From the IMG/VR virus record IMGVR_UViG_3300001683_001128, positions 1 through 20,262 of that record: DNA of 20,262 nucleotides. The stretch is one strand, 5' to 3'. Of the stretch, positions 1 to 9,248 are shown piece by piece. The position numbers and the translations under genes were made by a program. Within the stretch, counting starts at the first letter, position 1; each line of letters begins with the position of its first letter. The notes under the pieces were generated by a model. The model was not told the origin of the DNA, made no database searches, and saw nothing but the letters and a program-made list of their open reading frames with translations. Source of the DNA: a virus.

Positions 1-630
1 TTACTCACTGATTACGCAATTATTACTTTGGGTGGTAAATTAAAAAGAAAGGAACGTGTATCAGGTAGGTTTGCGGATGTGATTAGTAACTTATACTTAT
101 GCTCTGCTGTGTTAAAACAATTTGAAAATCAAGGTTGTCCGAAAGATGATTTACCATTGATGCATTGGTCTTGTCAACATACCCTCTATGAAGCACAACA
201 AGCTTTAGTTGAGGTTATGAAAATATTACCCTTTAGTGGTGGTATTAGTAGATTAATCATTTTTCCATTTGGTAAACCATACTCTTCACCAACAGATAAA
301 TTAGTTCATCAAACAGCTTCCATTTTACTAAATGATACCGAAACAAGGGATCGTTTAACGCATGGAATTTATGTTAACGATAGAGAAGATGACGCAACAG
401 GTCGTATTGAATGTGCATTTAAAGCGGTACTTGCCGCTATACCAGTTGAGAAAAAAATCAGACAGGCACAAAAAAATGGTTTATTAGTTAATACTATTAG
501 AACTCAATTATTGGACAACGCCCTTGAGATAAACATCATTACACTTGAAGAACGTGGATTGCTAGATGAGGCAGAAAGAATGCGAAGTCTTGCAATCGAA
601 GTAGACGATTTTGAAACACTAAAAGTATAA
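1..630 (+). CDS. fadE: Acyl-CoA dehydrogenase FadE, C-terminal part (truncated by window edge)
   Basis: The frame is open from base 1 (reads LLTDYAIITLGGKLKRK), so the TTG at 28 is not the start; about 209 C-terminal residues are seen. The protein resembles the C-terminal DUF1974 region of the long FadE acyl-CoA dehydrogenases of Gammaproteobacteria: SGRFADVISNLYLCSAVLK, then LPLMHWSCQ, RDRLTHGIYV and the terminal EVDDF motif. FadE proteins are usually around 800 residues, so the FAD-binding catalytic core lies outside the window. The family performs the first oxidation of fatty acyl-CoA in beta-oxidation. GC is about 35% by hand count, clearly above most of the AT-rich phage genes downstream. 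It ends 61 bp before a phage spike gene on the same strand. The identification is strong; whether it belongs to the phage genome, a host flank or a misassembly is unresolved. Confidence 0.88.
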   Translation, partial: LLTDYAIITLGGKLKRKERVSGRFADVISNLYLCSAVLKQFENQGCPKDDLPLMHWSCQHTLYEAQQALVEVMKILPFSGGISRLIIFPFGKPYSSPTDKLVHQTASILLNDTETRDRLTHGIYVNDREDDATGRIECAFKAVLAAIPVEKKIRQAQKNGLLVNTIRTQLLDNALEINIITLEERGLLDEAERMRSLAIEVDDFETLKV

Positions 631-691: not shown

Positions 692-1951
692 ATGGAAAAT
701 TATTTTGGAAAAAATGGGTTTATTTGGTTTATAGGCGTTGTCGAAGACCGAATGGATCCAGAAAAACTTGGTAGGGTTAGGGTTAGATGTATTGGGCATC
801 ATACCGAAGATAAAGCGGATATAGCAACAAAAGACCTATCATGGTCAACTGTTATGTCACCAACAACAACACCATCGATGGATGGTATGGGGTCTACACC
901 TCCATTTCTTGTAGAAGGGTCATGGGTTACTGGCTTTTTTATAGATCAATACAGACAAGAATCTATTATAGTTGGATCTTTGCCTGGATTCAATACCAAA
1001 AAAGATACTATTACAAGAGGGGATAAAGGATTTTCTGATCCAGCTAGTATATATCCTAAAAATGGTATGGATTATGACACTAATAAATTAGGAAGAGATG
1101 GAGGGTATAATAAAACCCATCCATCATATATAAACAGATATTCTAAAAGAATATGGTCTGGAAGTGACGACAATCCGGATAATATACAAATAGCCACAAA
1201 ACCTAATAACAAATCTGTTGATCCCAGTGGAACTGATGATATTAGAAAAATGTGGTCAGAACCAGAACCTAAATTAGGGCTATCAACTCGATATCCATTT
1301 AACCATATACAAGAATCTGAATCTGGCCATATTCATGAAATTGATGATACGCCAGGCGCAGAAACAATTTTAAATTATCATAGATCTGGAACATTTGAAG
1401 AAATTTTACCTGATGGTTCTAAAACTACTAAAATTGTTGGATCTGAATATGAAATAACTATATACGATAAAAACGTTTATATCAAGGGTAAATGTAATAT
1501 AACCATTGATGGTGATTGCAGACAATTGGTTAAAGGTGATTATGTATTAGAAGTTTTTGGTGATTATACTGAAAAAATTCATAAATCAAAGCACACAAAA
1601 ATTGGCGCTTCTGGTGAAGGAAATTATACATATGAAATAAATGGTAATCGTTCTGGTCATATTAGTGATACAGATAAATTAACTATAGATTCAAATTATT
1701 CTAGAATTTGTAAAGGCAATCATACAGATAAAGTAAATGGTACATATGATACTACAATTTTAGAAGATTATAATACAATGGTTGATGGAACATCTTTATT
1801 TTCATGTAAAGGTAATATTACAATAGCATCATATACAGAAAATGTTAATATATTCGCTGTTATGGATTTAAATTTAGATGCTGTTATGGATGTAAATATA
1901 AATGCAGATATGTATATGTACGCTACCGCTTTAGAAATTTATTTAAACTAA
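692..1951 (+). CDS. 5: Baseplate hub / tail spike protein, gp5-like, without lysozyme domain
   Basis: This 419-residue protein is the likely trimeric central spike under the tail tube. Residues about 10-100 form a gp5/VgrG-type OB fold (FIGVVEDRMDPEKLGRVRVR, later GSWVTGFFIDQ and ESIIVGSLPG). Residues 100-200 are a polar linker. From about 205 the protein enters the spike stem with YPFNHIQESESGHIHEIDDT and YHRSGTFEEI, then short beta repeats rich in G, D, N and K to the end, as expected for a triple-stranded beta-helix. T4 gp5 is 575 residues and carries a T4-lysozyme domain between the OB fold and the helix; here the linker is too short for one and I see no E...D...T catalytic arrangement. 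It is the first gene after late promoter 1. Seven bases separate it from the next gene. Confidence 0.85.
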   Translation: MENYFGKNGFIWFIGVVEDRMDPEKLGRVRVRCIGHHTEDKADIATKDLSWSTVMSPTTTPSMDGMGSTPPFLVEGSWVTGFFIDQYRQESIIVGSLPGFNTKKDTITRGDKGFSDPASIYPKNGMDYDTNKLGRDGGYNKTHPSYINRYSKRIWSGSDDNPDNIQIATKPNNKSVDPSGTDDIRKMWSEPEPKLGLSTRYPFNHIQESESGHIHEIDDTPGAETILNYHRSGTFEEILPDGSKTTKIVGSEYEITIYDKNVYIKGKCNITIDGDCRQLVKGDYVLEVFGDYTEKIHKSKHTKIGASGEGNYTYEINGNRSGHISDTDKLTIDSNYSRICKGNHTDKVNGTYDTTILEDYNTMVDGTSLFSCKGNITIASYTENVNIFAVMDLNLDAVMDVNINADMYMYATALEIYLN

Positions 1952-1958
1952 TATTAAT

Positions 1959-4900
1959 ATGTATAAAATAATTGCAAATGTTTCATATTCTAAAATAGGA
2001 AATCCGTATCATACTATTGATTATTTATTACCAGATAATACTGAAAATATAAAAGGTGATAACTTTGGTTTACATATACATTATCATGGTGGGACATGGG
2101 GAGAATCAGAAATTCCATTTTCTCAAGGTGGTGATAAAAATGAACAAATAGAAGTAACACTAGCTAAACATGCCGCATATATAGTTTCCAATCAAGACCC
2201 AGATGGTACAATAATAGCCCTAGTTAATTATAGACTTTCGGGAGAGGTATCATTAACAGATATGTATAATGATGTAATTACATCATTTAAGCACATATTA
2301 AATGATACAATTGATGGTGGTTTAAATGTTAATCAAACTAAAATATCAATATCTGGTGCTGGCTCGGGAGCTCATTTAGTTGCATGTATGGTTTCAAGGC
2401 CATTTGATCTTAAAAAGACATTCCTAAATTTAATAAATGATGTAATACTATATGGATTGCCAGGCAATCTTAATGATTATAAAGAAATATCTGTTAATCC
2501 ATATGGATTAATTTGGAATTGGACAAAAGTTTCTTCATCAGGTCTTGAATTTAGTCCAGAAGGCGCATGGTTTAATTCATGGGTAAAAAATTCCGAATTA
2601 ATTGATTATAATCCTAAAACTTTAATGGAAGGTTTTAGGGGTAATATAAATTTTACCCCAAGATTTAACCTTCATATGTTCCATGGTCGTAATGATATAA
2701 CATCAGATGTTAGAAGTGCTATAGAATTTTTAACAGCATATAAAAAAGTATCCGGTGCTGGATCTGGATATTCAGATGAATCAGAAATAGCAATACAAGA
2801 ATTATATATTGCTTATTTTGGTCGTCCCGCTGATCCATCAGGTTTTAAATATTGGTTAGATTCATTATCTAACGGAGTAACAATCACATCAATTGCAAAT
2901 GCATTTGCAGCTTCAGAAGAATGGCAGGTAATTAATGCATTAAATACAAATGATTTCTTGATATTAATATATCAACAATGTTTTGGAAGGGGATATAATG
3001 TCAAAACCCCCCCATCATCAGCATCAGAAACATCATTGCAAAAATTATACATTGCTTGGTTTGGTCGCCCAGCTGATCCAGAAGGTCTTATTTATTGGGG
3101 ATTACATTTAGACAGTGGATCTACAACTATAAACGATATAGCAACAAATTTTGGTGTTCATTCACCATCTATTCTTGCTTTAAATACAAATGATTTCTTA
3201 ATATTAATATATCAACAAGCATTTTCTAGAGTATATAATCCAGGCTTATCATCAAATAATCCAGTATCATCAGCATCAGAAACATTATTACAAGAATTAT
3301 ATATTGCTTGGTATGGTCGTCCAGCTGATCCAGAAGGTCTTTCCTTTTATGGAAATGCATTAGACAATGGATCTACAACTATAAACGATATAGCATTTGA
3401 GTTTGCAAACTCATCTGAAGGACAAATATTTATAAATCTCGGCACAAATGCATTCTTATCAGCGGTATATCTACAATCATTTTCAAGAGGGTATGATAAT
3501 GCAGTAGGTGCTGATGGTACATTCTGGTATGATGCAATTGAAAGTGGTGCTACCACCAAAGAATTGGCAATGGTGCAAATTCTTCAGGGTGCTGGAGGTT
3601 CTGATTATACAGCACTGAGTAATAAAGTTATAGTTGCAAAAACATATACTGAGGCAGTAACTAATGATAATAAAATTTATTCTGGAAATATTGCCGCATT
3701 AGAAGCATCATTTGTTATAGATAGAGTTACATCAGATTCTTCTACAGTGTCTCCAGGCAATACAGCGGCACAAACTGCGGTTGATAATTTACCATTTGGT
3801 AATATTGTTGATGGAGATAATATTACTACTGGAGCTGGTGTTGATGGTACATTTTGGTATGATGCAATTGAAAGTGGTGCTACCACCAAAGAATTAGCGA
3901 TGGTGCAAATTCTTAACGGAGCTCAAAATGCTGATTTTTCTGCAATGAGTAATAAAGTTATAGTTGCAAAAACATATACTGAGGCAGTAATTGATGACAA
4001 TAAAGACTTTTCTGGTGCATCAGCAATTTCTACATCTCAATCCATTCTAGCCGCTGTTACATCAGATTCTTCTACAGTGTCTATAGGTAACACAGCGGCA
4101 CAAACTGCGGTTGATGCCTTGAATTCTGCTCCACCACCAAATCCTAATTTAGGCCCTGATGGTTCATATTGGTTTGATCAAATTGAAAGTGGCGAAATGC
4201 CCAAAGGATTGGCCGCAGCAAATATTATTTGGGGAGCTCAACATTCAGATTCCATAGCAGTGCAGAATAAAGTCACTGTAGCTCGAAATTTTACTTCCGA
4301 AATAATTAAAACAAATAAAGACTTTTCTGGTGCATCAGCAATTTCTGCATCTAAAACCGTTCTGTCTGTTGTTACATCAGATTCAGCTACAGTGTCTATG
4401 GGTAATGACGGGTCAAAAATTGTAATCGATAATTTACCTCTAAGTGATGAGGAAGGTGTTCCTGTAATTCACGCTTCTATGAAAATTTATGAAAATTCTG
4501 GACATGCATTAGAAGGATTATATACAGATCCAACACAACAAACAGACACATTAATACCTCATCCATATACATTCCCTAGAGATGGTTCACTTAGTTATAC
4601 AGAAGAAAATCTTGGTTCTATTACATCATTATTATCTGATTTTAAAGCTGCATCCGCATCTGCCCCTAAATTTGATTATACTAACGATCCTATAATGAAT
4701 ATGAATATAGGTGGAATTCCTATATTAGATGATAATGGCGATGTAACATTATCAGAAGGAGCATTAAAGGGATGTGGAGTTAATATGGCAATAGATTTTC
4801 TTGATGAAAATTTAAATAAAGTTTTAGATAAAGGAAAAACTATTGACAAATTCACTTCAGCTTTAGCTTGGTGTTCAGAACTTCAATCATTAGGAGATGA

Positions 4901-5900
4901 TATTATTGGTAATATCAGGGGCGAATTAAATATACCATCTATATCAGATATAACAGATAGTCTTCCAGAATCAATAGGTTCAATAGCTGAAACTGCAGTT
5001 AAGGCTGGTGCAATATATGAATCTGTGCAGAATGGTGGACTTGATATATCAACTCTTAATAATGCAATGTCGGTTATGAATACAGATTATGGAGATGCAT
5101 TAGGTAGTATTGGATTAGACTCTAATAAAATTATGAGTATTGTAAGTGGTGGTGATTCAATTTCATCCATACTTAATGGTGGTAGTTTATGTGAAACTAT
5201 GCCAAATATATCAAAATTAGCTTCAGGAGAAGTTTTAGAAATTTTAGCTCCTGTGGAATTAGCAACTAAAGATATTAAACCTGAAATGGCCAAACCAGAA
5301 GATATTGATATAATAGCTTCTGATAATATTAAAAAAGAATTAGAAACAGAACTCAAACCAACCAATTCTTTAACTGCTAAAAATAAAGAAGTAACTAAGA
5401 GTTTTGTACAAAATACCAATGAATTAATTGGTATATCTTTAGGAGTAACAACAAAATTAAAATTAGAACTTCCTATATCAGATAATCCTAGAGATTTCCG
5501 TGAAAATCCCACACAAATGCATTATTCTATTACTAAACCTATAACAGATATAGCTAAAAATCTAGATTCAGGGATACCAAGATCCACGCCTGGATTAGTT
5601 GATACAGATGTTGGTGTTCAACAATTGAATTCATTTGTTAATAATAGATCTTCAGATGAAGATCCAAGAGGTGCATCAGGTAATATGATAGCTGATATGT
5701 CAAATATATTAACTTCTGGTATTAATTTCAGCAATGAAGAATTATCAAATTATACAGATCCTAGTTCTTTAATAAATATTATTAAATCTAAACTACCGAA
5801 TGAAGATTCTACTATATTACCAACAGGATTATTAAATTTTGATGATCCTAATCATGAAGGTGTTCAAAAGATTAAAGATATTCATGAAGAAATTAAATAA
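1959..5900 (+). CDS. Virion protein: alpha/beta-hydrolase split by DUF4214 repeats, plus unassigned C-terminal region
   Basis: This protein has 1313 residues in a mosaic layout. Residues 1-270 look like the N-terminal part of an esterase/BD-FAE-type alpha/beta-hydrolase: oxyanion motif HGGTW at 43-47, a nucleophile-elbow region GAGSGAH at 133-139, and acid strand HGRND with Asp246. Residues about 275-515 hold three DUF4214-type units (LYIAxFGRPADPxG). Residues 519-827 hold three longer units of the S-layer-associated DUF4214 type (DGTFWYDAIESG, NKVIVAKTYTEAV). The hydrolase then resumes with GVPVIHASMKIYENSGHALE, giving a candidate catalytic His849. Residues about 890-1313 match nothing I recognise and look like a virion component. 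No signal peptide is visible. Its place between gp5 and PAAR suggests a baseplate-associated enzyme or host-contact protein. Substrate and activity are unknown, and the consensus nucleophile position is Gly (135) with Ser at 136. Confidence 0.75.
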   Translation: MYKIIANVSYSKIGNPYHTIDYLLPDNTENIKGDNFGLHIHYHGGTWGESEIPFSQGGDKNEQIEVTLAKHAAYIVSNQDPDGTIIALVNYRLSGEVSLTDMYNDVITSFKHILNDTIDGGLNVNQTKISISGAGSGAHLVACMVSRPFDLKKTFLNLINDVILYGLPGNLNDYKEISVNPYGLIWNWTKVSSSGLEFSPEGAWFNSWVKNSELIDYNPKTLMEGFRGNINFTPRFNLHMFHGRNDITSDVRSAIEFLTAYKKVSGAGSGYSDESEIAIQELYIAYFGRPADPSGFKYWLDSLSNGVTITSIANAFAASEEWQVINALNTNDFLILIYQQCFGRGYNVKTPPSSASETSLQKLYIAWFGRPADPEGLIYWGLHLDSGSTTINDIATNFGVHSPSILALNTNDFLILIYQQAFSRVYNPGLSSNNPVSSASETLLQELYIAWYGRPADPEGLSFYGNALDNGSTTINDIAFEFANSSEGQIFINLGTNAFLSAVYLQSFSRGYDNAVGADGTFWYDAIESGATTKELAMVQILQGAGGSDYTALSNKVIVAKTYTEAVTNDNKIYSGNIAALEASFVIDRVTSDSSTVSPGNTAAQTAVDNLPFGNIVDGDNITTGAGVDGTFWYDAIESGATTKELAMVQILNGAQNADFSAMSNKVIVAKTYTEAVIDDNKDFSGASAISTSQSILAAVTSDSSTVSIGNTAAQTAVDALNSAPPPNPNLGPDGSYWFDQIESGEMPKGLAAANIIWGAQHSDSIAVQNKVTVARNFTSEIIKTNKDFSGASAISASKTVLSVVTSDSATVSMGNDGSKIVIDNLPLSDEEGVPVIHASMKIYENSGHALEGLYTDPTQQTDTLIPHPYTFPRDGSLSYTEENLGSITSLLSDFKAASASAPKFDYTNDPIMNMNIGGIPILDDNGDVTLSEGALKGCGVNMAIDFLDENLNKVLDKGKTIDKFTSALAWCSELQSLGDDIIGNIRGELNIPSISDITDSLPESIGSIAETAVKAGAIYESVQNGGLDISTLNNAMSVMNTDYGDALGSIGLDSNKIMSIVSGGDSISSILNGGSLCETMPNISKLASGEVLEILAPVELATKDIKPEMAKPEDIDIIASDNIKKELETELKPTNSLTAKNKEVTKSFVQNTNELIGISLGVTTKLKLELPISDNPRDFRENPTQMHYSITKPITDIAKNLDSGIPRSTPGLVDTDVGVQQLNSFVNNRSSDEDPRGASGNMIADMSNILTSGINFSNEELSNYTDPSSLINIIKSKLPNEDSTILPTGLLNFDDPNHEGVQKIKDIHEEIK
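2790..3510 (+). repeat. Three DUF4214-type repeat units in coding sequence
   Basis: Three units of roughly 240-250 bp begin near 2798, 3040 and 3292. Each encodes an LYIA.FGRPADP.G core, an ITSIA or TTINDIA helix and (first two) an NTNDFLILIYQQ segment. DNA identity is high in places: ACAAATGATTTCTT followed by ATATTAATATATCAACAA recurs 240 bp apart near 2945 and 3185, and CTACAACTATAAACGATATA recurs near 3120 and 3372. This points to duplication rather than ancient divergence. Confidence 0.8.
3513..4437 (+). repeat. Tandem coding repeats, S-layer-type DUF4214 units
   Basis: Unit 1 (3513-3842) and unit 2 (3843-4157) are 330 bp apart in phase; 3513-3584 and 3843-3914 differ at three of 72 positions, and 3618-3660 is identical to 3948-3990. 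Unit 3 (from 4158) is more diverged in its first half, but its later part (ACTTTTCTGGTGCATCAGCA near 4322) repeats unit 2 at 315 bp spacing. All are in frame. Local near-identity suggests recent duplication or gene conversion. Confidence 0.85.
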
Positions 5901-6135
5901 CAATAATAACACAAGATTAAATCGTTATATAACACAGAGAAGAGTAAATCATCTTCCTACGATACATAATGATTCTATAGAATCTATGTGGAAAAATGAT
6001 CCATACTTTAATAATGACATTATTAAGGAACAATCTGGATATACCGATCTGGAATACAGAACACATTTTTCTAGATCGGAATTGATAGAATTATTTGAAT
6101 TATACAATCAACTCCAGGCAGAATTGTCGGAATAG
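5884..6135 (+). CDS. Small protein of unknown function
   Basis: The protein has 83 residues and starts MKKLNNNNNTRLNRYITQRR. I choose the ATG at 5884, which overlaps the preceding stop by 17 bp, over the ATG at 5839, because the longer form would overlap 62 bp and start with non-conserved-looking residues. It is charged, has no membrane segment, and its C-terminal third (FSRSELIELFELYNQLQAEL) is predicted helical. I do not recognise the family. Its position between spike genes makes a small baseplate or chaperone role possible but unproven. Confidence 0.6.
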   Translation: MKKLNNNNNTRLNRYITQRRVNHLPTIHNDSIESMWKNDPYFNNDIIKEQSGYTDLEYRTHFSRSELIELFELYNQLQAELSE

Positions 6136-6142
6136 GATACTT

Positions 6143-6538
6143 ATGCATAAATATAAATTTAATCTTACAAAAGTAATAGATGGTGATACAATTGACGGAC
6201 AAATTGATTTAGGATTTAATATATTATATAAAGTTCGTATAAGATTATCTGGAATAGACACTCCAGAAACCAGAACTAGGAATTTAACAGAAAAAAAGTA
6301 TGGTATTGAAGCAAAGAATAAACTTTTAGAATTACTTACGGCCGATTCTGAAGATATTGTTGTTCAATCACACGGTCTTGGTAAATTTGGTAGAGTTTTA
6401 GGAACTCTTTATGTTGGAGATAAAAATATCAATGATATCATGATATCAGATGGTTATGCAATTGAATACCATGGTAATAAAAAAATAGAAACTTCCAAAT
6501 TATTAGAAATGCTTGATTTAGTACGTTCAAAGAAATAG
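6143..6538 (+). CDS. Staphylococcal nuclease-like (SNase) endonuclease
   Basis: The 131-residue protein is a minimal SNase/thermonuclease domain, a Ca2+-dependent family that cleaves DNA and RNA phosphodiester bonds. The catalytic and metal residues of the family can all be placed: Asp13 and Asp15 in VIDGDT, Arg34 and Asp39-Thr40-Pro41-Glu42 in RLSGIDTPET, and Arg84 in GKFGRVLG, matching Asp19/21, Arg35, Asp40, Thr41, Glu43 and Arg87 of the S. aureus enzyme. The ATG at 6143 is preferred over the upstream one at 6095, which would overlap the previous gene; GGAT lies a few bases upstream. No signal peptide is seen. The location inside a structural operon suggests either host-nucleic-acid degradation late in infection or packaging with the virion; the sequence does not decide. 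Confidence 0.85.
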   Translation: MHKYKFNLTKVIDGDTIDGQIDLGFNILYKVRIRLSGIDTPETRTRNLTEKKYGIEAKNKLLELLTADSEDIVVQSHGLGKFGRVLGTLYVGDKNINDIMISDGYAIEYHGNKKIETSKLLEMLDLVRSKK

Positions 6539-6545
6539 GTAAAAT

Positions 6546-6953
6546 ATGGCACATCCAGTAGCTCCATATAAAAAAACTCCAGCTGTAGCTAGAGGTGATC
6601 AAGTAGATATTGTAAATACTAATCATGGTTGTCAATCTACAACTACAACTGATGAATGTTCTGATGATGTATTTGTAAATGGTATTGGTATACATAGACA
6701 GGGCGATAATAATACAATTCACTTAGTAAGTTATGGTATTTGTGTTCCACATCAAACACCTATAACTATAGGATCAATAACTGTATTTGCAAATTCAATG
6801 GGTGTTGCTCGCGTGGGTGATTATTATACTGGTGGAGAAAATGTTTCTTGTAACGATACGGATGATGATAATAACCAAGACAATAATTCGAATAATTCGA
6901 ATGGATCGCATGATGTATTTGCAGGGCCAATAAACTCATGTTATTCATTATAA
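6546..6953 (+). CDS. PAAR-domain spike tip protein (gp5.4-like)
   Basis: The 135-residue protein has the PAAR layout: N-terminal TPAVARGDQVDI, DVFVNGIGIHRQGD at 41-54, HQTPITIGSITVFANSMGVA at 69-88, RVGD at 89-92 and a closing DVFAGP at 123-128. Several His and Cys residues (His27, Cys29, Cys38, His50, Cys66, His69) are candidates for the buried metal site. PAAR proteins cap the gp5/VgrG spike as the membrane-piercing point. A stretch at 103-121 is almost only Asn, Asp and Ser and interrupts the fold just before the final strand. The stop codon lies inside late promoter 2. AGGT near 6537 may serve as a weak ribosome-binding site. Confidence 0.85.
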   Translation: MAHPVAPYKKTPAVARGDQVDIVNTNHGCQSTTTTDECSDDVFVNGIGIHRQGDNNTIHLVSYGICVPHQTPITIGSITVFANSMGVARVGDYYTGGENVSCNDTDDDNNQDNNSNNSNGSHDVFAGPINSCYSL

Positions 6954-6956
6954 ATA
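6949..6956 (+). promoter_or_regulatory. T4-type late promoter 2 (TATAAATA)
   Basis: Exact late-promoter consensus, 31 nt before the gp25 start. Its central TAA (6951-6953) is also the stop codon of the PAAR gene, so the promoter is built into the end of the upstream reading frame. Confidence 0.7.
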
Positions 6957-6987
6957 ATAAGATACAATAAGAAATGGTAATATTCAT

Positions 6988-7392
6988 ATGAATAAAGATA
7001 TTTTTAAAACGCCCGATAAGCGTTGGAAAGATTTTGATTTAAATTTTTCCACTCATCCTGATACTGAAGATTTAACATTTCTTATTGATGATAACGCAAT
7101 AAAAAGATCAGTAAAAAATTTAATATTTACAAATAGAACAGAAAAATTATTTAATCCTACATTTGGTTCTGATATAACGTCAATGTTATTTGAAGATATT
7201 GACATAGTAGGTGTATCTTTTATTAAAGATACTATATTTAAATTATTACATACATATGAACCAAGAATTATTACTTCTGATATAAGAGTATCTTCGTTAA
7301 GTAATAATTTACGCGTAACAATTGAATATAGAATTATATCTAAACCAGAAGAATTACAAGTAATAGAAACGCTCATAGAAAGGATAAGATAA
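6988..7392 (+). CDS. 25: Baseplate wedge subunit gp25
   Basis: The 134-residue protein is of typical size for gp25 (T4: 132) and contains the family core at 43-70: NLIFTNRTEKLFNPTFGSD followed by LF. The glutamate and the N-P-x-F-G pattern are the hallmark of the GPW/gp25 family, also found in type VI secretion (TssE). The protein joins wedge and hub and helps start sheath assembly. The gene is first in its unit after late promoter 2 and its TAA overlaps the next ATG by one base (TAATG), which suggests translational coupling with gp6. Confidence 0.9.
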   Translation: MNKDIFKTPDKRWKDFDLNFSTHPDTEDLTFLIDDNAIKRSVKNLIFTNRTEKLFNPTFGSDITSMLFEDIDIVGVSFIKDTIFKLLHTYEPRIITSDIRVSSLSNNLRVTIEYRIISKPEELQVIETLIERIR

Positions 7393-9248
7393 TGAGTACA
7401 ACAGATAAATTGGGGTCAACTACCGAGCAAGATTTTGATGAAATTAAAAATAATTTAAAAATTTATTTAAAAAATCAAGGAGAATTTACAGATTATGATT
7501 TTGAAGGATCTGGTGTTTCATCCTTAATAGATATTTTGGCCTATAATACCCATTACATGGCATTGACTGCAAATATGACTGCCAATGAAATGTTTTTAGA
7601 TTCTGCAGTTCTGAGGAATAATGTTGTATCTCATGCTAGAAATTTAGGATATACACCTAAATCTAAAAGATCCTCTAAAAATGTTATAACTCTAACTGGA
7701 TTTACACAAAGTGGTGGATCTTCTAATCAAATAGAAACAGTAATATTACCTAAAGGATCTAAATTCTCATCTGGGGATTCGGGTAAATTTTATACATTTG
7801 TAACTAATAAAGAGTATTCATGTATCAGTTATGATGGATCTATTTTATTTGAGGATATAGAAATATTTGAAGGTAAATATGTCACCAATACTATTACAGT
7901 ACAGGAAAATGAAAAACAAATATATGAAATACCAAATAGAAATATTGACACCACTACCCTTAAGGTTAGTATAAAAGATTCTATATCTTCTACAACTTTT
8001 AAAGAATATAAATTAAATAAATTATTAACAGATTTTAATTCATCTTCAGGAATATATGAAGATTCAGAGTACTTTTTTCTTCAAGAAGGACATGATGAAA
8101 AATATGAAATATATTTTGGTGATAATGTTCTCGGTAAAAAATTAACTCCTGGCAATATTATTGAAATAACCTATATTATAACTTCTGGCCCTGAAGCTAA
8201 TGGAATTAAAACTTATACAAGAAAAGATTCTACTCCATATATAGGTTCACTTACATTAACAACAAATTCACCTTCATATGGTGGTGGTTTATTAGAATCA
8301 ATTGAATCTGTAAAATTAAGTGCCCCAAATACATTTATGGCTCAAAATAGAGCTGTGACTTCTAGAGATTATGAACATTTTGTAAGAGAAATATATCCAG
8401 AATTAACACAGATATCAGTATGGGGTGGTGAAGCGAATGATCCACCAATATATGGTAAAACATTTATAGCAATCAAACCTTTTACAAATGCAATTAAAAA
8501 AATAATACAAGATAGATTAAAAATATATAATGTAGCTTCTATTACACCAGAAGTTATAGAACCATATTATATGTTTCTTGAATTGAATGTGGATTTTATT
8601 TACGATAATACTATAACAAAATTTACTGAAAATCAATTATCTTCATTAGTTCGCGAAACTGTAGATAATTATAATTCTAGTACATTGTTGGAATTTAATA
8701 CACCTTTTAGATATTCAAATTTTTCCTCTTTAATTGATAATACAAATAAAGCTATAATATCTTCTAATACCACAATTAAAGTTAAACAGTATATAAAACC
8801 TTTACTAGGAACTGATCATTTATATGAAATTAATTTCTCTAATAAATTATATAATCCTTATGATTCATACAAAGGCCTTGAAGGTAAAGGATCTGTTTGG
8901 TCAAATGGGTTTTATAAAGATGGTGATAATAATATAATATTTTATCTTAAAGATTCTGGTTCGGGTAAATTAGAACTTTATTATCATCCTACTGGATCTA
9001 CAGAAATGGTAGTACTTGATAATGAATTTGGTACAATAGATTATATTGATAGGTATCCACTTCTTTCTGATGTTAATACAGAAGGGAAGATTATAATACC
9101 TTCATTAAATATAACAGGATTTCCTGGCAGAGATGAGTTTTTAATATTAACAACAATATTTAAATTTAATGATGTTGTTCCTATTAGAAATCAATTAATT
9201 CAAATTGAATCTATTAATATAGTTGCAACAAAAAATGAAAGTATCTAA
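7392..9248 (+). CDS. 6: Baseplate wedge subunit gp6 (Baseplate J family)
   Basis: The protein has 618 residues, close to T4 gp6 (660). The N-terminus has the wedge pattern with FEGSGVSSLIDILAYNTHYM and LRNNVVSHARNLGYTPKS. Near residue 320 is the Baseplate-J signature AVTSRDYEHFVREIYPE followed by VWGGEANDPPIYGKTFIAIK. gp6 forms the inner ring of the baseplate that opens on contraction. A good AAGGA lies before the start. The one-base TAATG overlap at both ends ties gp25, gp6 and the next gene into one translated unit. Confidence 0.9.
   Translation: MSTTDKLGSTTEQDFDEIKNNLKIYLKNQGEFTDYDFEGSGVSSLIDILAYNTHYMALTANMTANEMFLDSAVLRNNVVSHARNLGYTPKSKRSSKNVITLTGFTQSGGSSNQIETVILPKGSKFSSGDSGKFYTFVTNKEYSCISYDGSILFEDIEIFEGKYVTNTITVQENEKQIYEIPNRNIDTTTLKVSIKDSISSTTFKEYKLNKLLTDFNSSSGIYEDSEYFFLQEGHDEKYEIYFGDNVLGKKLTPGNIIEITYIITSGPEANGIKTYTRKDSTPYIGSLTLTTNSPSYGGGLLESIESVKLSAPNTFMAQNRAVTSRDYEHFVREIYPELTQISVWGGEANDPPIYGKTFIAIKPFTNAIKKIIQDRLKIYNVASITPEVIEPYYMFLELNVDFIYDNTITKFTENQLSSLVRETVDNYNSSTLLEFNTPFRYSNFSSLIDNTNKAIISSNTTIKVKQYIKPLLGTDHLYEINFSNKLYNPYDSYKGLEGKGSVWSNGFYKDGDNNIIFYLKDSGSGKLELYYHPTGSTEMVVLDNEFGTIDYIDRYPLLSDVNTEGKIIIPSLNITGFPGRDEFLILTTIFKFNDVVPIRNQLIQIESINIVATKNESI

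Follow-up and report, generated by a model that had tools for sequence, protein, structure and literature searches.

The esterase fold is not always linked to catalysis, and neuroligins and the GID1 gibberellin receptor, which carry this fold and have lost a catalytic residue, are thought to function in binding. In phages, tail-spike deacetylases and esterases such as that of phage PP99 place an esterase-type domain in the host-contact apparatus and act enzymatically on O-polysaccharide (PMC6989608). The structural gene clusters of marine T4-like phages carry additional carbohydrate-binding proteins (PMC7029224) and, among bacteria, DUF4214 of segmented filamentous bacteria is considered likely to serve in surface anchoring (PMC12780176). 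Here we consider a protein of a T4-type baseplate cluster that brings together an alpha/beta-hydrolase domain with glycine at the nucleophile position, an array of DUF4214 and other repeats, and a C-terminal module homologous to the proteins encoded after gp5 in related phages.

The locus and the gene position after gp5

The window analysed is the complete IMG/VR record IMGVR_UViG_3300001683_001128, of 20,262 bases, and it carries a T4-type baseplate cluster with the gene order gp5, a 1313-residue open reading frame (ORF), an SNase-type nuclease, a PAAR tip protein, gp25, gp6, a wedge protein and gp8. The features of the ORF are summarised in Table 1. Only eight bases separate the gp5 stop codon from its start. 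In the gp5-like protein the OB domain exceeds the Pfam cut-off, the C-terminal trimer domain scores 28.6 bits, slightly below the cut-off of 30.9, and no lysozyme domain was detected. A preliminary description of this DNA had followed the reading frame to about residue 867, but a single open frame extends to residue 1313, with frame and composition unbroken throughout. PHROGs and NCBIfam yielded nothing useful for the protein.

Table 1. Features of the gp5-proximal region of the window
Feature	Residues	Window position	Strand	Basis
gp5-like baseplate hub/spike protein		692..1951	+	Pfam Gp5_OB 4.8e-24, Gp5_trimer_C 1.7e-6
Whole ORF, 1313 aa, immediately 3' of gp5	1-1313	1959..5900	+	
Alpha/beta-hydrolase domain without last strand and His	1-271	1959..2771	+	Pfam BD-FAE; AlphaFold; Foldseek esterases
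HGGTW oxyanion-hole motif	43-47	2085..2099	+	HGG and W in 80/80 relatives
Nucleophile elbow GAGSG, no Ser at nucleophile position	133-137	2355..2369 (Gly135 codon GGC 2361-2363)	+	
Lid/cap-like region between strands 6 and 7	170-234	2466..2660	+	Low-confidence AlphaFold model
Predicted strand 7 (237-241), HGRND loop (Asp246), helix 247-264	237-264	2667..2750	+	AlphaFold without guiding alignment there
Three DUF4214 units	274-348, 357-427, 440-513	2778..3497	+	Pfam PF13946, alignment, DNA repeats
Three repeats of about 105 residues		3512..4422 (DNA copies 3512-3777, 3842-4107, 4157-4422)	+	
Candidate last strand and His849 of hydrolase	833-856	4455..4526	+	Sequence reading; YENSGH kept in sister contig L015
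Region homologous to 'CGIDL' protein 3' of gp5 in related phages	~938-1120	4770..5318	+	hhalign

The preliminary description had placed the protein in the spike region and had missed a conserved C-terminal module which ties it to the baseplate cluster. In related contigs the gene following gp5, in several cases directly, encodes a protein of 250-390 residues with its N-terminus at or near the motif MPCGIDL. A profile built from 14 of these CGIDL proteins aligned by hhalign with the C-terminal region over about 155 columns (E 3.9e-5, score 43.5), while 40 shuffled controls scored at most 21.5 and other parts of the ORF 15-17; the ORF shares both homology and gene position with the CGIDL proteins. 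The match begins at their extreme N-terminus, which argues that about 930 residues were added in the window lineage. Judged from this alignment, these residues are fused ahead of a conserved baseplate-neighbour protein, an arrangement that the first reading had not noticed. In two further relatives, contigs L012 (1479-2453) and L013, the position after gp5 is occupied by a 324-residue protein in which an endolysin-type domain was recognised (phrog_894, 2.5e-14 in L012), which suggests that it accommodates host-surface functions.

Only one close relative of the ORF was found, contig L015, with 87% identity across the C-terminal part. There a differently arranged array is joined to that part, and the contig begins within the array with the hydrolase part out of view. 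At window positions 5889-5890, 29 bases of L015 are absent and the frame is shifted such that the ORF ends about 80 residues early, the rest of the L015-like C-terminus lying in the window ORF at 5839-6135; this may be a real deletion or an assembly slip. On the other side of gp5, immediately upstream, window positions 1-630 encode the C-terminal 209 residues of an acyl-CoA dehydrogenase of the FadE type (Pfam ACDH_C 3.6e-68), with matches in only three phage records. Five related contigs (L004, L007, L009, L010 and L011) have, upstream of gp5, one gene resembling those of thiamine enzymes (MNLGHFLIKQLRLYGAEHIFGIPGD) and another resembling those of short-chain dehydrogenases, which are possibly auxiliary metabolic genes.

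The hydrolase domain and its nucleophile elbow

An N-terminal alpha/beta-hydrolase, as proposed in the preliminary description, is borne out by profile and structural comparison. Residues 1-271 alone match the Pfam family BD-FAE (PF20434) with 29.0 bits, above the curated cut-off of 26.8, and the whole protein scores 24.2 bits, below it. Sequence evidence for the fold covers residues 1-168, and the AlphaFold model extends the canonical elements to residue 264. Two AlphaFold runs were made, of 890 and 271 residues, using relatives aligned only to about residue 146 (one row slightly beyond), so that the regions of the acid and histidine were not steered by them. Residues 1-148 were modelled with pLDDT values of about 80-93, except for a loop near 41-80, and from residue 237 onwards confidence in the 271-residue run was only moderate, with block means of 42-57. 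In the 271-residue run strands were placed at 2-9, 19-25, 36-42, 84-89, 124-134 and 159-165, and the canonical strand-helix order is present through strand 5, the elbow and strand 6. Esterases were the best Foldseek matches, some of them spanning about 300 columns. No close relatives of the hydrolase part were found in phages, viral contigs or plasmids.

The HGG oxyanion motif of catalytic esterases is present within HGGTW, which the preliminary description had noted. It also gave the elbow as residues 133-139, but the catalytic serine is missing from it. In an alignment with 80 bacterial relatives of residues 1-271, collected by a scan of bacterial genomes and free of gaps at the elbow, position 135 is serine in all 80 and glycine in the window, and position 136 is alanine in 79 and serine in the window (codons GGC TCG). 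Both elbow glycines occur in 80/80 relatives, and the window retains the flanking residues of the elbow. PDB alignments likewise put Gly135 in the nucleophile column, and the GxSxG pattern of catalytic esterases is thus replaced by GAGSG. The viral and phage collections yielded no relative of the hydrolase part, so that Gly135 rests on one contig. Two adjacent residues depart from the family, which makes a single base error an unlikely cause. The earlier label of enzyme is therefore doubtful. By its sequence the domain is probably a pseudoenzyme, except in the case of a one-residue shift of the elbow, with which Ser136 could in principle serve as nucleophile.

The repeat array and the possible position of the last strand

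The preliminary description envisaged a hydrolase split by about 580 residues of DUF4214-type repeats. There is a real array with three DUF4214 units, matching the Pfam profile PF13946 in three stretches (85.1 against a curated cut-off of 23.2, E 3.4e-24), but it extends over about 560 residues (272-832). Moreover, only its first 240 residues or so are of DUF4214 type, and the remainder consists of three copies of a different repeat of about 105 residues, with 71-80% DNA identity to a reference copy. Sequence resembling this second repeat follows DUF4214 in two other viral loci (L105 and L107), where the tail clusters of phages include DUF4214 proteins in the vicinity of sheath or lysozyme genes. 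In L107, a putative zinc protease (HELGH; 3137-4171) and a 1171-residue cadherin/calcium-repeat protein (4995-8507), both with DUF4214, adjoin a tail sheath gene on a phage contig, and in L105 two DUF4214 proteins (4965-6206 and 4057-4614), one encoded on each strand, are flanked by tail genes and a phage lysozyme gene. The earlier term S-layer-like is weakly grounded: a Caulobacter control genome gave no DUF4214 match, leaving a relation to RsaA-type S-layer proteins unsupported, and the nearest solved relatives are phycobilisome linkers. A match of the DUF4214 profile to one of these, the core-membrane linker ApcE (E 4.9e-7), hints that DUF4214 shares the linker-domain fold.

Residues 242-246 (HGRND) and 833-852 (GVPVIHASMKIYENSGHALE, with His849) lie in frame as first described. 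The catalytic roles given to Asp246 and His849 were readings by eye, and in motif scans these residues rank 38th of 1280 and 10th of 1295 positions, respectively, neither exceeding shuffled sequences. In the AlphaFold model of residues 1-271 the chain runs into the array after helix 247-264 with no final strand and no histidine, which fits a last strand lying elsewhere in the protein, and GVPVIHASMKIYENSGHALE, followed by a helix-like stretch, resembles the missing elements. Of the checks proposed at the outset, structure prediction of residues 1-890 folded the segment 1-148 well but gave pLDDT values below 50 for 808-890, and the joined halves, compared with Pfam and profiles, gained nothing over the split sequence or decoy joins. 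The spacing from Asp246 to His849 in the joined sequence would be 37 residues, against 30-33 in 15 relatives. We consider a split of the hydrolase by the array to be plausible and somewhat more likely than not.

Two other lines on the catalytic histidine were set aside. A MAFFT alignment suggested His242 of HGRND, in an unsplit domain, but AlphaFold sets this residue after strand 7, the usual place of an HGxxD motif, and HGTAD occupies this site in a true BD-FAE relative. A scan with formamidase-type histidine regions ranked His1188, in the C-terminal module, highest and His849 129th, this branch being too divergent for judgement.

A reading without any split, which we hold to be rather unlikely, is that an incomplete hydrolase half (1-271) became joined to the front of the DUF4214 repeats and now persists as a folded binding domain or is decaying, with residues 833-936 a linker and the SGH of that segment coincidental. 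It would account for profile matches confined to residues 17-168, for a joined sequence that scores like decoys, for the rank of His849 within the shuffles and for the poorly modelled segment 808-890. Yet it leaves residues 1-271 without the strand that closes the fold. It also has to accommodate the origin of 833-936, which must have arrived with the added part since the proteins after gp5 in related phages have nothing ahead of CGIDL, and the strand-then-GH pattern is kept in L015 (YENSGH) despite the variable array around it. Also considered, and very improbable, is a false assembly of the hydrolase 5' part with the repeats. Repeats are prone to misassembly and the hydrolase-array junction is present on one contig only, but the copies across the array are only 62-85% identical at the DNA level, so that the array is not an obvious artefact. 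Furthermore, frame and composition are continuous, gp5 precedes and the baseplate gene order follows, and the point at which the array meets the C-terminal part recurs on L015 as a second contig.

The protein might also be an active esterase or deacetylase, removing acyl groups at the host surface ahead of injection and using a shifted nucleophile (A134-G-S136-G-A138) with Asp246 and His849. Serine one residue on, with small residues on either side, readable acid and histidine residues, and the existence of tail-spike deacetylases such as the one cited above are all compatible with this, but the gap-free alignment of the elbow with relatives that invariably carry serine at position 135 speaks against it, and a shift would have to be compensated by two changes in the stretch from strand to helix; we regard it as improbable. 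A split pseudo-hydrolase is the reading pursued below.

A possible role at the host surface and comparison with known proteins

The protein would be an accessory of the T4-type central spike or baseplate, with synteny and homology suggesting that the module from about residue 938 onwards attaches it there, at the spike or the hub. In the window lineage the residues fused to the front would then provide a hydrolase with a serine-to-glycine change and a DUF4214-type array, the latter most likely inserted in the loop that precedes the last strand, such that the hydrolase may form a head from which the array projects as a side arm. Having no nucleophile, the esterase-shaped pocket would most likely bind an acylated or acetylated polymer of the host surface without cleaving it, while the array would add adhesion of the type found with surface proteins of bacteria and hold the spike at the envelope. 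From its anatomy, an esterase domain that is dead but retains its oxyanion motif would most plausibly serve as a binding head, in view of the array and the parallels from DUF4214 in tail clusters and from carbohydrate-binding proteins. The 1313-residue protein thus probably holds on to the host surface and does not cut it. That it is a spike- or baseplate-anchored adhesin, made up of a dead esterase and surface-protein repeats, with the array inside the hydrolase and a C-terminal baseplate module, we rate at close to even chances. The fuller proposal, that an esterase became a host-surface receptor on the central spike by loss of its nucleophile and insertion of an adhesin array before its last strand, is tentative and less likely than not. 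The split-enzyme architecture first described was a fair reading which missed the nucleophile, overstated the S-layer likeness and left the split unproven.

If correct, the position beside the spike gene is one where marine T4-like phages exchange host-contact domains, exemplified by the endolysin-type domain in one relative and the dead esterase with adhesin repeats in the window, and the pseudo-hydrolase would represent a little-noticed type of phage receptor-binding module.

Compared with known proteins, the domain shares strand and helix order, the HGG-W motif and the elbow position with BD-FAE, Abhydrolase_3 and kynurenine-formamidase-type hydrolases (PF20434, PF07859; PDB 4e15, 4zrs, 1lzk), and differs in its glycine nucleophile position, in residues 1-271 lacking the last strand and histidine in place, and in the very large array ahead of the candidate last strand. 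DUF4214 surface and secreted proteins of bacteria (PF13946) have DUF4214 units followed by an NK-VA helical repeat, as in the phage ORF, but here the units lie inside a baseplate-cluster protein instead of opening a calcium-binding-repeat protein. The CGIDL proteins (L002-L011, L145-L158) have the gene position and the aligned columns in common with the ORF, whereas they start at or near CGIDL and have no counterpart of its long N-terminal extension. With the PP99-type spikes the protein would share an esterase-type domain in the host-contact apparatus, but it lacks the nucleophile for their enzymatic action. If our reading holds, it would work like neuroligins and GID1, in which a non-catalytic hydrolase fold is used for binding, although it belongs to a phage and to another hydrolase branch, and carries a DUF4214 array.
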